A DNA stretch of 44,643 nt. Origin: Pontiellaceae bacterium B12219 (GTDB taxonomy: Bacteria; Verrucomicrobiota; Kiritimatiellia; Kiritimatiellales; Pontiellaceae). Each line of letters starts with the position of its first letter. Within the stretch, counting starts at the first letter, position 1. The stretch spans positions 1 through 44,643 of the forward strand of contig JARNMJ010000035.1 in the NCBI GenBank assembly GCA_029432795.1, read 5' to 3'. Of this stretch, positions 12,080 to 18,391 are shown piece by piece. The translations under genes were made by a program, and so were the position numbers. The notes below the pieces were generated by a model that saw only the letters and a list, made by a program, of their open reading frames with translations, had not been told where the DNA came from and searched no databases.

Positions 12080-12748
12080 TTAGGATGCTTCTTTTTCAGT
12101 GGAGCCCTTCAGGGCATCCAACTCGTCAGTACTGCTTTTTTCCGGACTTAAACTGCAGTGCTTCACTTTTTCTTCTTTCCGGCATTTTAATCGGTGGAGC
12201 ATGCGGCGGTAGGATTTGATGATGCCGAGAAAAATGACGGGTGAGGCAATGATGAAAAAGCTGACTTCATCGAATGGAATTCGATGTTCAATATAGAGTA
12301 TGCCCATCAGTCCCGGTACCAGGGAGTGTCCGGGAACTCCGAAAAATTCGGCAACCCAGGGCCGGAAAGAGCGGCGGATTCCGGCGAATACCAAAAAGAG
12401 TCCGTAAAGAAAAAGAACCAGAACCAGAGCCATATTCCTGAGGCCGAAATAAGAACCTTCTCCGGCATCCTGTGCAAATGGAGAGAGCATATAGGCGGTG
12501 AAAACCAGCGTGATTCCGGTCGACATCACATTGGTATGCCCATGGGCTTCATCGCTGTGGATGATGAAATACAGCTCCGTAATCAACCATGCACCGATTA
12601 ACGGAAGATAAACCAGCGGTTCATCAATCACGATTTTGGCAATATCGATTATTCGGTGATAAATGAGGGATACATCCATAGGCGGGTTCATTCTGTAAAA
12701 CGACTGAATACAACCTATCGGAATTGGTTCAGGATATTCAATCTGCAT
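12080..12748 (-). CDS. Membrane protein of unknown function
   Basis: I do not recognise the family. About 222 residues; five or so hydrophobic segments, including LVYLPLIGAWLITELYFII, TGITLVFTAYMLSPF, MALVLVLFLYGLFLVFAGI and FFIIASPVIFLGII, followed by a basic stretch and a charged cytosolic-looking C-terminal tail. A His/Asp-rich loop HSDEAHGHTN sits after the first helix and could bind a metal. The start is uncertain: the ATG at 12748 is used here, a GTG lies at 12754 and another ATG at 12691, none with a clear ribosome site. The gene converges on hflX with a 4-base gap and is divergent from the esterase gene. Confidence 0.6.
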   Translation of the reverse strand: MQIEYPEPIPIGCIQSFYRMNPPMDVSLIYHRIIDIAKIVIDEPLVYLPLIGAWLITELYFIIHSDEAHGHTNVMSTGITLVFTAYMLSPFAQDAGEGSYFGLRNMALVLVLFLYGLFLVFAGIRRSFRPWVAEFFGVPGHSLVPGLMGILYIEHRIPFDEVSFFIIASPVIFLGIIKSYRRMLHRLKCRKEEKVKHCSLSPEKSSTDELDALKGSTEKEAS

Positions 12749-12833
12749 GTTCACGATTTCAAAGGGTAAAAATCATGCACGAAAAAAAGGGGGGCGATCG
12801 TTTTCTGATAACTGATAATCGATGGAGGTCTTT

Positions 12834-13892: not shown

Positions 13893-14043
13893 GGAGTAAT
13901 GAAGCGTTCGGTTAGGTCAGGCTATCCCGGCCATCCGCCAAGAATTGTTATTCGTGTAATATGACAAATGTGATCATAAAATGTATTTGGCAGCGAATCT
14001 GCTATGTAGCTTTAAATACGATTTTGAATGCCGGATAAGTTTA

Positions 14044-14475
14044 ATGAACCAATTGAAACCACATTTCTTTCGCCGATATGTCCTTTTCACTGCCGTAAGC
14101 ATGATGCTCTTTTGCTCGCTGCAACCTGTTTTCTCCATGCAGATCTTCGTGAAATCATTGACGGGAAAAACGGTCGCGCTCGAAGTGGAGGCCAACGATA
14201 CGATTGAAAGCGTGCGGCAAAAGTTTATAGAAAAGGAGGGCGAAGAGCCCGACCTGGTATTTGGCGGGAGGCCGTTGGAAGCCGAGCGAACGCTGGCCGA
14301 CTATAATATTCAAAAGGAATCCACCCTGCATGCCATTCTTCCCGTTGCAACCACAACACCAACAACGACCGCCTCGGCTTATTCGTGGTGGAGCATACTG
14401 GGGGCTGCAGCAATCGGGCTGGCCTTTATGCTGAAGTATGCGCGAAAAAAAACACGCATAAATGGCCGCATATAG
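14044..14475 (+). CDS. Secreted ubiquitin-like protein with a C-terminal sorting-signal-like anchor
   Basis: 143 residues in four parts. Residues 1-31 are a signal peptide (basic start, hydrophobic core, predicted cut after Val-Phe-Ser). Residues 32-99 are a ubiquitin fold starting [12 protein letters not shown] and containing [11 protein letters not shown]. My hand alignment to eukaryotic ubiquitin gives 46 identities in 68 positions, with a gap at ubiquitin residues 40-42. Lys6, 11, 29, 33 and 63 are kept, Lys27 and Lys48 are Arg, and Ile44 is Val. The LRLRGG tail is absent. Residues 102-114 are Thr-rich, 115-130 are hydrophobic ([16 protein letters not shown]) and the end is basic (KYARKKTR). 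This is the tripartite layout of an exosortase substrate. The ATG at 14044 is preferred over an in-frame ATG at 13981 because the signal peptide then starts properly and a possible promoter (TTGGCA 13987, TTTAAA 14011) lies between. The exosortase gene overlaps its end. Confidence 0.9.
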
Positions 14476-14986
14476 CAAATCCGGTACTAAGTTTGATTTA
14501 CGCACGACCTGCGTTCGATTGGCCTTTTTTCTCCTGCTGTTCATCGGAGCAATAGGCATGATTGATCTGGCGAAAGGATGGGGTGGATTACGGATTCAAA
14601 CCGCACGAATCGCGACCGGAATTATCTCTGTTACAGGAGTGCCGGCAGCGCGATCCGATGAGCTTATTTTTCTGACTCACCGCAATCTGCTGATTGCAAC
14701 CGAATGTCTGGGACTCATGTTGCTTGCCGTTTTTTATGCGCTCATTCTGATTTATCCCACCCGACTGCGGTATCAATTTGCGGGCATCTTTATCGGTACC
14801 CCGCTGATCCTTTGTGCAAACCTGTTTCGGCTGTCTGGTCTTGCGTATGTTTCGTTCCATTTACCCGGTGCGTTTGATTGTGTTCATACGATTCTCTTTC
14901 CGGTGCTGATGGGGTTGATTGCGGTGGGATTATGGGGCTTCTGGATCTATCTTCTTCCCAAGGATGCGCAATCAAAAAAAATATGA
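14462..14986 (+). CDS. Small exosortase-family transpeptidase/protease
   Basis: Integral membrane protein of 174 residues in the exosortase/archaeosortase family, which cleaves C-terminal sorting signals and is thought to transfer the protein to an envelope acceptor. The three family active-site residues are visible: Cys82 in ATECLGLML, Arg123 in [11 protein letters not shown] and His142 in [13 protein letters not shown]. About four or five membrane helices fit the core domain; the larger EpsH-type extensions are absent. The ATG overlaps the last 14 bases of the ubiquitin-like gene and has no clear ribosome site, suggesting coupled translation. This makes the upstream protein the obvious dedicated substrate, as in known single-target exosortase pairs. 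No other protein in the window has a matching C-terminal signal. Confidence 0.9.
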
Positions 14987-15012: not shown

Positions 15013-15093
15013 AATATCGCGCTTAAATCCTGCGCTCTGAACAAAACCTTTGTATGATCTGCGCCGTACTTGGAAATCAGCGAGGAAATAAGT

Positions 15094-15564
15094 ATGTCTC
15101 CAGAAGAATTACAAAACAGCCCGTTGCATGGGTTGTCTGCAGAAACCATGTTGACTGAATTGGTGGAATTTTACGGATGGGCCGTTTTAGATGCGGCGAT
15201 CGATCTGAAGTGTTTCAGAATTAAACCAACGATTCCCAGCAGTTTGGCCTTTTTAAAAAAAGCCGAGTGGGCGCGGAATCGCGTTGAAGATTTTTATCTC
15301 TATCAATTCAAACGCATGCCGAAACCCAGTGAAGAAGAGCTGGAATTGAAACCGCGCGAACGCGGTTTCCCAATGGGGGTGAAGCCGAAGAAGCCCATTC
15401 CGGTGACGGTTAAAACCGTTGAAAAGATTCAGATCGATCGGGAGCCGAAGGTTGAAAGAGCCCGCCCGGAACGAGTGCGTCGTTTTGAGGAAATCCCGGA
15501 GGAAGAAGAACCGCAGGAAAGCACCTTTAAATCCCGCTTCTCAAACTCCCGTTTCCGCACATAA
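15094..15564 (+). CDS. VF530-family DNA-binding-type protein with a charged tail
   Basis: The first about 75 residues match the VF530 family: PLHGLSAETMLTELVEFYGW, then LKCFRIKPTIPSSLAFLKK and EWARNRVEDFYLYQ. VF530 is a small helical domain described as DNA-binding from its structure; its role is unclear. The remaining about 80 residues are a low-complexity tail rich in Pro, Lys, Arg and Glu, which is longer than the usual single-domain members. The ATG at 15094 has GAGGAA 6 bases upstream and is preferred over an in-frame TTG at 15070. The next gene starts 11 bases after the stop, so they may be co-transcribed, though no functional link is evident. Confidence 0.85.
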   Translation: MSPEELQNSPLHGLSAETMLTELVEFYGWAVLDAAIDLKCFRIKPTIPSSLAFLKKAEWARNRVEDFYLYQFKRMPKPSEEELELKPRERGFPMGVKPKKPIPVTVKTVEKIQIDREPKVERARPERVRRFEEIPEEEEPQESTFKSRFSNSRFRT

Positions 15565-15575
15565 CGGAGGATGCA

Positions 15576-16847
15576 ATGCGGGGATCGGTCAGGCGGTTCG
15601 GTATGAAGGTGGTGATTCTCGTTTTGGGATTGTGCTGGGGACCGCTGGCATTCGGGGAGGCGTGGAAAAACGTGCCGCTGCCGAAGCACGAAGAGCATCA
15701 GGTGCGGCCCATGACCGGAATCGTACTTTGGAATGACCATCCTGAGAGCGATCGCGCCGAGATCCAATTGGAATATTCCTATATGCCCTTCGATCGCGTA
15801 GCGGTTGCGCAGAATCCGGCTGAATGGGATTGGAGCGGTGTTGAAGCGCGGCTGGATGATATGGCATCGCATGGGCACCAGGCCATACTTCGTTTTTATT
15901 ACACCTATCCGGGTAAACCCACCACCGTACCGGCCTATATCAAGGCGTTGGACGGTTATAACGAAACCACCGCGAAGTCGGAGGGAAAAACAACCGGATT
16001 TCCCGATTGGTTGCACACAGAACTGAAGGCCTTTACGACGCGGTTTTATACCGAGTTCGCGAGGCGGTACGATGCAGATGCGCGTCTGGCCTTTTTGCAG
16101 GTCGGTTTTGGATTGTGGGGGGAATATCACATTTATGATCCGTCCGCGCAGCTGGGGCTCAACTTTCCCGATAAAAACTATCAGGAAGCGTTCCTTCGTC
16201 ATTTGGACGCGACGTCCACGAATCTGTGCTGGAGCATTTCAATTGATGCGCAAAATAAGTCGGACACGCCTTTTGAATCTGTGCCTGAACTGAAAGACCT
16301 TTCGTTCGGGCTCTTCGACGATTCGTTTCTTCACAAGGGGCATGGAAAGTATAACAAGGAATGCTTTGATTTCTTCGGTACGGCGAAACGGCTGCAATCA
16401 CCCGTGGGCGGCGAGTTGAGTTATTACTCCGATTATGATCAACGCCATGCGCTGGATGTTCCGAAGGGGCCGCATGGAATTTTGTTCGAGGATCTGGCGG
16501 CGGACTATCACGTGAGTTACCTGATCGGAAACGACCAACCGAAGTATCAGAACTGGGATCGGATTCGCCGTGCGGGATGGGCGCTGGGTTATCGGTTTGT
16601 TATTACCTCTTTCGAAACCTCCGGATCGAGCTCACGCGTGACCGTTGAAAACCGGGGGATTGCCCCTTTTTATTACGATGCGTATATTGCGGTAAATGGG
16701 AGTCGCGCGGAAACCACTTTGAAGGGGCTTGCTCCGGGCGCGTCGATGGCCTGCGTGGTCGAGGGGGACGCCGGGAGCGACCCGGTGCTGACGATTGAGT
16801 GCGACCGATTGGTGAAAGGGCAGCGGATTGGGTTTGATATCCGGTAA
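15576..16847 (+). CDS. Secreted DUF4832-type protein
   Basis: 423 residues with a signal peptide (MRGSVRRFGMKVVILVLGLC onward, likely cut after AFG). The body resembles DUF4832 proteins, which have a TIM-barrel-like part followed by a small beta domain. Visible features are GIVLWNDHPE near residue 48, ILRFYYTYPGKPT, FLQVGFGLWGEYHIYD around 175 (a glycosidase-like strand end with Glu) and a C-terminal VTVENRGIAPFYYDAYIAVN beta-sandwich segment. DUF4832 proteins are often found with polysaccharide-degrading genes. A catalytic activity is plausible but not shown. GGAGG lies 5 bases before the ATG. The beta-helix gene follows after 17 bases, suggesting an operon. Confidence 0.8.
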   Translation: MRGSVRRFGMKVVILVLGLCWGPLAFGEAWKNVPLPKHEEHQVRPMTGIVLWNDHPESDRAEIQLEYSYMPFDRVAVAQNPAEWDWSGVEARLDDMASHGHQAILRFYYTYPGKPTTVPAYIKALDGYNETTAKSEGKTTGFPDWLHTELKAFTTRFYTEFARRYDADARLAFLQVGFGLWGEYHIYDPSAQLGLNFPDKNYQEAFLRHLDATSTNLCWSISIDAQNKSDTPFESVPELKDLSFGLFDDSFLHKGHGKYNKECFDFFGTAKRLQSPVGGELSYYSDYDQRHALDVPKGPHGILFEDLAADYHVSYLIGNDQPKYQNWDRIRRAGWALGYRFVITSFETSGSSSRVTVENRGIAPFYYDAYIAVNGSRAETTLKGLAPGASMACVVEGDAGSDPVLTIECDRLVKGQRIGFDIR

Positions 16848-16864
16848 ACAGAGGCTGGTGAAGG

Positions 16865-18391
16865 ATGAAAACGATACTGTGTGTGTTGCTGTTGATGGGA
16901 GTATCCGAAGGATTTTCGAAAGAGGCGCCTCGGGAAGCGGTCACCTATGAAGCATTTGGCGCGGTGGGGGATGGTGTTGCCGATGATCTTCCGGCCATCT
17001 GCAAAGCTCATGCGCACGCCAATGAACACGGTCTGCCGGTTCGTTCAAAACCGAGTGCGACTTACCACCTCGGGCGCAAGGCATTGACGGCCGTCATTGC
17101 AACCGATACGGATTGGAGCACTTCGCGTTTCACGATTGATGACACTGATGTGGAAAATCATAAAAAACCGCTCTTTGAAGTTCGCTCCCGGTTGCAACCG
17201 GTGGAGATTGAGATCGATCAGCTGCAGCGTGATCAAAAACAGCTGAATGCCCGTCCGGAACAGGATTGTTTTGTGATGGTGGAAAATAAAAGTAAACGGG
17301 TTTATATTCGAAGAGGCCTCAATCAGAACAGCGGCAGTCCCCAGCATGACTGTTTTATTCTGCGCAAGGACGGTTCCGTTGCGACGCCCGTCGACTGGGA
17401 TTATTCTGTGATTACCAAAGTGGTTGCCCGCCCGATCGACGAACACACGCTGACGTTGCGCGGTGGTGTTTTTACGACTTTCGCAAACCGGATGAAACAG
17501 GAGGAAGGGTATAACTACTGGTCCCGGAATATCATCATTTCCCGTTCCAATACCGTTGTTGAGAATTTAACGCATTACGTGGTGGGCGAAACGGATGTGG
17601 GACATCCGTATTCCGGTTTCATCAATGTGCGGGAATGTGCCGATATCACCCTGAAAAACTGTTTCGCCTCCGGGCATAAAAAATATTCAACCATCGGTTC
17701 CGCCGGGAAACCCGTGAGTATGGGATCGTACGACTACAGCATGAGCAATGTGGTGAACCTCCATATGATCGGATGCCGAATGAATCATATTCTGGATCGA
17801 ACGCGCTGGGGCGTCATTGGATCGAACTTCTGCAAAAATATTCTGCTCGAAGATTGTGAGCTCTCCCGCATGGATGTGCATCAAGGCGTTTCCGGCACCT
17901 ATACCATTCGGCGTTGTACGCTCGGACATATGGGGCTCAATGCCATTGGACGGGGCCTGCTCACTGTGGAAGACTCCACGCTCTACGGCCGGAATCTGGT
18001 GAGTTTCCGCAGCGACTACGGCAGCACGTGGGAAGGCGATCTGGTGATCCGGAACTGTCGCTGGATTCCTGCCGGCGGATCAACGGTTACACCGTATATG
18101 ATTGGCGCCAGCAATGACGGAATGCACGATTTCGGCTACCCCTGTTTTATGCCGCGCCGCATTTTCATCGAGAATCTCTTTGTGGAAGACCGGCATGTGC
18201 CTGCCGACTATAAAGGCATGTATTTCTTCTCCAATCATGACCGTAAAGATCCCGCAGCCGACCGACCTTTTCCTTATCGGTTGACTGAAACGTTATCCGT
18301 CCAGGGGCTGGAAACTGCGAGCGGGATAGCGCCGCGTATTTCTCCGAATCCAATGGTGCGGGATAGCGTGGTCGTAATTGAGGAAAACTAA
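16865..18391 (+). CDS. Secreted right-handed beta-helix (pectate lyase-like) protein
   Basis: 508 residues with a signal peptide MKTILCVLLLMGVSEGFS. The mature N-terminus carries YEAFGAVGDGVADD, the opening motif of the pectate lyase superfamily/GH28-like beta-helix proteins. Repeated short strands with Asn, Cys and Gly (for example ADITLKNCFASGH, NILLEDCELSRM, YTIRRCTLGHMGLNAIGRG) form the helix coils between about residues 220 and 420. It probably binds or cleaves a polysaccharide, together with the DUF4832 protein encoded directly upstream. The substrate is not determinable from the sequence. A strong terminator follows and ends the unit. Confidence 0.82.
   Translation: MKTILCVLLLMGVSEGFSKEAPREAVTYEAFGAVGDGVADDLPAICKAHAHANEHGLPVRSKPSATYHLGRKALTAVIATDTDWSTSRFTIDDTDVENHKKPLFEVRSRLQPVEIEIDQLQRDQKQLNARPEQDCFVMVENKSKRVYIRRGLNQNSGSPQHDCFILRKDGSVATPVDWDYSVITKVVARPIDEHTLTLRGGVFTTFANRMKQEEGYNYWSRNIIISRSNTVVENLTHYVVGETDVGHPYSGFINVRECADITLKNCFASGHKKYSTIGSAGKPVSMGSYDYSMSNVVNLHMIGCRMNHILDRTRWGVIGSNFCKNILLEDCELSRMDVHQGVSGTYTIRRCTLGHMGLNAIGRGLLTVEDSTLYGRNLVSFRSDYGSTWEGDLVIRNCRWIPAGGSTVTPYMIGASNDGMHDFGYPCFMPRRIFIENLFVEDRHVPADYKGMYFFSNHDRKDPAADRPFPYRLTETLSVQGLETASGIAPRISPNPMVRDSVVVIEEN

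Follow-up and report, generated by a model that had tools for sequence, protein, structure and literature searches.

Structure of the gene pair

The window, that is, the whole stretch of 44,643 nucleotides analyzed in this study, carries two overlapping genes on its forward strand. The upstream gene encodes a ubiquitin-like protein predicted to be exported, and the downstream gene encodes a short exosortase. The features of the pair are as follows.

14044..14475 (stop codon included), + strand: ubiquitin-like gene, predicted exported product of 143 amino acids (open reading frame; PF00240; fold match)
14044..14136, + strand: predicted Sec signal peptide of 31 residues (basic n-region, hydrophobic stretch, V-x-S before Met32, model helix 6-24; most secreted homologues are alike)
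14137..14343, + strand: ubiquitin domain, residues 32-100 (Pfam, homology search, structure model, alignment)
14344..14385, + strand: Thr/Pro-rich linker of 14 residues, without LRLRGG (sequence, alignment)
14377..14475, + strand: candidate sorting signal, made up of a YSWW region, a single hydrophobic helix and an 11-residue basic tail (hydropathy; helix 112-140)
14462..14986, + strand: short exosortase gene, 174 amino acids (PF09721, TIGR04178, invariant Cys82/Arg123/His142)

The membership of the domain in the ubiquitin family is beyond doubt. The protein scored 58.1 bits on PF00240, the ubiquitin family of Pfam, whose cut-off is 25.4. Its identity to solved ubiquitins was about 60% across the matched stretch, with a phmmer E-value of about 1e-22 against single ubiquitin chains. 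In the fold prediction that an earlier note on this DNA had called for, the AlphaFold2 model showed a beta-grasp with pLDDT above 90 and helices at residues 6-24 and 112-140. The predicted signal peptidase site, between VFS and MQIF, directly precedes Met1 of ubiquitin. The reading frame also has an alternative, longer in-frame start, an ATG at position 13981.

Within its group, the domain is a divergent one: alignment with human ubiquitin showed identity at 46 of 76 positions. Three residues are deleted after the PD of PPD, and Lys48 is replaced by Arg. The patch formed by Leu8, Ile44 and Val70 is conservatively retained as Leu, Val and Ile. The domain ends without RGG and thus lacks the C-terminal, exposable Gly-Gly that a conjugatable ubiquitin presents for activation by E1. 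The earlier note had suggested a route of ubiquitin attachment independent of E1/E2/E3. This suggestion finds no support here, because ubiquitin is itself the cargo, its RGG end is missing and nothing points to a protein as acceptor.

The open reading frame of the exosortase overlaps that of the ubiquitin-like protein by 14 bases (14462-14475). The enzyme matched PF09721 (Pfam; 35.1 bits, cut-off 25.7) and TIGR04178 (NCBIfam; 46.7 bits, cut-off 23), and the active-site residues Cys82, Arg123 and His142 were invariant in an alignment of 10 sequences. The cut-offs of the named exosortase subfamilies, XrtY and others included, were all missed (best scores: XrtX, 59.8 against 170; ArtB, 53.6 against 150; XrtH, 41.8 against 86). 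Since these scores are far below every subfamily cut-off, the enzyme of the window belongs to the exosortases without falling into XrtH, XrtX or ArtB. Its structure model, built from a single sequence, was poor (pLDDT 63). A sigma-70-like promoter was looked for upstream of the pair, and none was found. The two-gene arrangement described in the earlier note was thus confirmed in full, from the signal peptide, ubiquitin domain, Thr-rich linker, helix and basic tail of the first gene to the three active-site residues of the second and the overlap. Its proposal that the ubiquitin fold is exported with a tail of helix and basic cluster is likewise supported.

Surrounding DNA

A block of genes in the order VF530, pectate-lyase-like, proX and proW (15070-18391) is common to the window and one relative in the genus (L184). 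The block of the relative is without the DUF4832-like gene found in the window at 15576-16847, and the position 5' of VF530 is occupied there by another gene instead of the ubiquitin/exosortase pair. Three observations make an assembly chimera unlikely: the gene downstream of the pair is conserved within the genus, this block is common to the window and the relative, and the base composition is even. On the complementary strand, a membrane-type open reading frame with no Pfam match lies between hflX and an esterase gene (12080-12754).

Tail of the ubiquitin-like protein and possible substrates in the genome

The protein has a signal peptide, a C-terminal helix and a basic cluster, and is the single sequence of this tail type. 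The tail gave no match above cut-off to the PEP-CTERM and IPTL-CTERM models, and no curated sorting family fits it. Its likeness to IPTL tails was limited to S-x-W-[GAS], which arises in 30% of linker shuffles. This resemblance is not significant, and no conserved recognition motif, such as the earlier note had hoped to find by aligning C-termini, is proposed for the tail.

The draft genome, which is about 96% complete, contained two exosortase matches. The other exosortase is of the long type, XrtA/XrtD-like, and adjoins an EpsI-like gene. The PEP-CTERM model had 34 matches in the genome; those tails that were read are of the VPEP or IPEP type, and the tail of the window protein is not among them. 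The IPTL-CTERM model gave nothing above cut-off across the genome. When the last 43 residues of the ubiquitin-like protein were searched against the genome, only the protein itself was found, and the next match had an E-value of 0.5. As the genome showed neither an IPTL-CTERM protein nor another copy of the ubiquitin tail, the neighboring gene encodes the only evident substrate of the short exosortase.

Where a sorting enzyme has only one target, the two have been regarded as a dedicated system, and rhombosortase usually adjoins its lone target (PMC3237569). The pair in the window has the same character, a single target in the genome located beside the enzyme: within a genome about 96% complete, neither this tail nor IPTL tails occur elsewhere, and the two genes overlap.

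Distribution of the pair and relatives of the enzyme

Among 346 genomes of the class, the ubiquitin gene was found in 15, the short exosortase in 6 and both in 2, and the two genes were adjacent only in the window. The search of related genomes for the same pair, which the earlier note had proposed, covered 388 genomes from the phylum and 346 from the class as well as viral contigs, phages and plasmids, and gave no second adjacent case. The adjacent pair is thus a single instance. In other members of the genus, neither the ubiquitin gene nor the short exosortase was found. Viral contigs contained no relative of the exosortase, and a viral origin of the pair was rejected for this reason.

In the class, four relatives of the short exosortase are encoded directly 3' of a gene whose product terminates with an IPTL-like motif, a helix and a basic tail. 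The motifs of the upstream cargo are IPTLSEWG (L004/L141), IPMMTFW (L005/L142), VPMLTLL (L145) and VPTLTEWG (L147), and the exosortase genes of L004 and L005 are located at 1276-1788 and 1459-2133, respectively. The cargo domains of these relatives differ from ubiquitin; one is LamG-like as judged by eye, and another has DUF11-type repeats. The order of cargo and short exosortase thus recurs in the class, and the window holds the ubiquitin version of this layout. A gene for a small membrane protein lies 3' of the exosortase in several of the class relatives and is absent in the window. In L004 (1746-2462) and L005 (806-1459), this membrane protein had no NCBIfam match.

Secreted ubiquitins in other bacteria

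A scan of genome contigs yielded 172 relatives of the ubiquitin protein, from which 80 loci (L006-L085) were retained; as the scan depends on patterns of short peptides, these numbers are no census. In most of the secreted homologues, the signal peptide ends exactly before Met1 of ubiquitin. The C-termini that follow the domain vary and include, as judged by eye, what look like autotransporter barrels, repeats of the dockerin type, and tails that are either LPXTG-like or short and helical. The distribution of the ubiquitin gene was patchy in each group examined. Most of the exported ubiquitins, which include those of the viral contigs L086-L089, have LADYN where human ubiquitin reads LSDYN.

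At five ubiquitin loci, the tail scored above the cut-off of a curated model for exosortase sorting. The tail is of the IPTL-CTERM type in L018 (Brevundimonas), L072 (Cocleimonas flava) and L086 (a contig of a viral collection), of the VPDSG-CTERM type in L100 and of the PEP-CTERM type in L102. The genes of L086 and of two further IMG/VR contigs (L087, L088) are near-identical ubiquitin-IPTL-CTERM genes. Seven genomes whose ubiquitins bear a tail were tested, and five of them contained an exosortase. The genome of L072 has a true XrtH (170.6 bits, cut-off 86), and those of L100 and L102 each contain an exosortase. The genome of L018 (G390) was searched for an exosortase, and none was found. 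The tail of L018 is common to two other proteins of that genome (L192, L193), with 69-74% identity. This points to a ubiquitin module that takes over an existing sorting tail of its host. At none of the ubiquitin loci other than the window was an exosortase found in the flanking DNA examined.

As read from the tails, ubiquitin is a recurring, predicted cargo of the exosortase type, seen with three different curated tails (IPTL-, VPDSG- and PEP-CTERM). The earlier note knew of no ubiquitin-type cargo for any exosortase. These curated tails, and the exosortases in the genomes that carry them, strengthen the idea that ubiquitin can be exosortase cargo and at the same time weaken the claim to uniqueness. 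The same note had reasoned that the pairing would be called into question if homologues commonly occurred without an exosortase and with variable tails. Taken generally, the ubiquitin domain does show this situation, as no exosortase was found in the flanks examined at the other loci; it is not the situation for the pair, as the closest relatives of the enzyme in the class lie behind tail-bearing cargo.

Interpretation of the pair

On the basis of these observations, we consider it likely that the two genes form a dedicated exosortase/cargo operon whose cargo is ubiquitin. The pairing, which was already put forward in the earlier note, is well supported, if indirectly, by the single target found in the genome and by the cargo-exosortase layout of the class relatives. 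Against it stand the single instance of the adjacency, a tail that fits no curated sorting model, enzyme scores below all named subfamilies, the missing gene for the small membrane protein, the poor exosortase model and the lack of a sigma-70-like promoter upstream. In such an operon, the ubiquitin-like protein would be exported by Sec, and cleavage by signal peptidase I would free its N-terminus at Met1 of ubiquitin. The C-terminal helix and basic tail would hold it in the inner membrane. The exosortase, probably translationally coupled to the cargo gene through the overlap of 14 bases, would then cut near the border of linker and helix with Cys82, Arg123 and His142, and the cut ubiquitin would be passed to an acceptor in the envelope or released. 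The ubiquitin fold would work outside the cell as a module for binding or antagonism, not as a conjugated modifier. To our knowledge, the chemistry of exosortases has been little studied, and their cleavage sites, acceptors and products are mostly unproven.

It is worth considering two other interpretations of the locus. The protein may simply be a periplasmic protein anchored in the membrane by one C-terminal helix, with an exosortase that serves other substrates or is a recent acquisition without a role. Such an interpretation would agree with a tail that fits no curated sorting model, with the unrelated C-termini of other secreted ubiquitins and with the absence of either gene from relatives in the genus. 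We nevertheless regard it as unlikely: the genes overlap, the catalytic residues of the exosortase are intact, the genome is without another recognisable class of substrate for the short enzyme, and the layout of cargo and exosortase recurs in the class. The exosortase at the locus might alternatively be incidental, the tail of the ubiquitin-like protein being processed by the long enzyme of the PEP-CTERM type. That enzyme and its 34 PEP-CTERM matches are present in the genome, and one secreted ubiquitin of another genome has a PEP-CTERM tail. The tail in the window, however, is without a PEP motif and falls outside the PEP-CTERM matches, and we consider processing by the long enzyme very improbable.

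The role of the protein is a separate matter, which is compatible with the dedicated pair. Among studied proteins, the nearest counterpart is BfUbb of Bacteroides fragilis, an exported ubiquitin that mediates intraspecies antagonism; it has no terminal Gly, and its signal peptide is removed precisely at Met1 (PMC5705921). The processed protein of the window might similarly be a released or displayed antibacterial protein. It has the sequence features of BfUbb (predicted export, a predicted cut at Met1 and the absence of a terminal Gly), and genes of this kind are patchily distributed. On the other hand, no immunity gene was recognised beside the pair, a tail at the C-terminus would point to attachment and not diffusion, and in many homologues the domain is joined to long extracellular regions. 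We regard this antibacterial role as possible, but less likely than not. By analogy with BfUbb, display on the envelope or shedding under the control of the exosortase is possible; an adhesion or structural role may equally be considered.

A broader picture, to which we would give an even chance, is that bacterial ubiquitin is a mobile extracellular module which has repeatedly been given the surface-sorting tail of its host, whether for exosortase, sortase, autotransporter or dockerin. In the window, the module would be the sole substrate of its own exosortase and would be displayed on the surface or shed as an effector or adhesion domain. If the dedicated pair is real, a compact exosortase of 174 residues that acts solely on one small, very well-characterised fold would make a convenient test system, the product of which could be traced directly by mass spectrometry. 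The scattering of exported ubiquitin over bacteria, with many kinds of surface-attachment tails, raises the question of what ubiquitin does outside the cell.

Comparison with known systems

Among open-access papers naming both ubiquitin and exosortase, titles and the openings of abstracts showed no link between the two. The window is the only case that we found of a ubiquitin with its own exosortase adjoining.

BfUbb (PMC3352274, PMC5705921) is a secreted ubiquitin cut at Met1, with no terminal Gly for conjugation, and the window protein is predicted to resemble it in this. BfUbb has been described as a secreted antimicrobial, whereas in the window the domain is followed by a linker, a predicted membrane helix and a basic tail, and an exosortase gene adjoins. 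The pairs of rhombosortase and GlyGly-CTERM protein (PMC3237569) have in common with the window one enzyme and one target per genome, encoded by neighboring genes. The enzyme of the window, however, is an exosortase and not a rhomboid protease, and its cargo has no Gly-Gly motif.

The XrtH/IPTL-CTERM and XrtM-type systems (TIGR04177, TIGR04300, TIGR04174) share with the window a short exosortase and an adjacent upstream cargo with a helix and basic tail, as in the four class relatives. The window differs from XrtH/IPTL-CTERM in the score of its enzyme (41.8 bits against 86), in a tail that is not IPTL-CTERM, in its ubiquitin cargo and in having no downstream membrane protein. The secreted ubiquitins with IPTL-, VPDSG- and PEP-CTERM tails (L018, L072, L086, L100, L102) differ in that their tails are curated and the exosortase, where found, lies elsewhere in the genome; they share with the window protein the signal peptide, the ubiquitin domain and a tail of the exosortase type.
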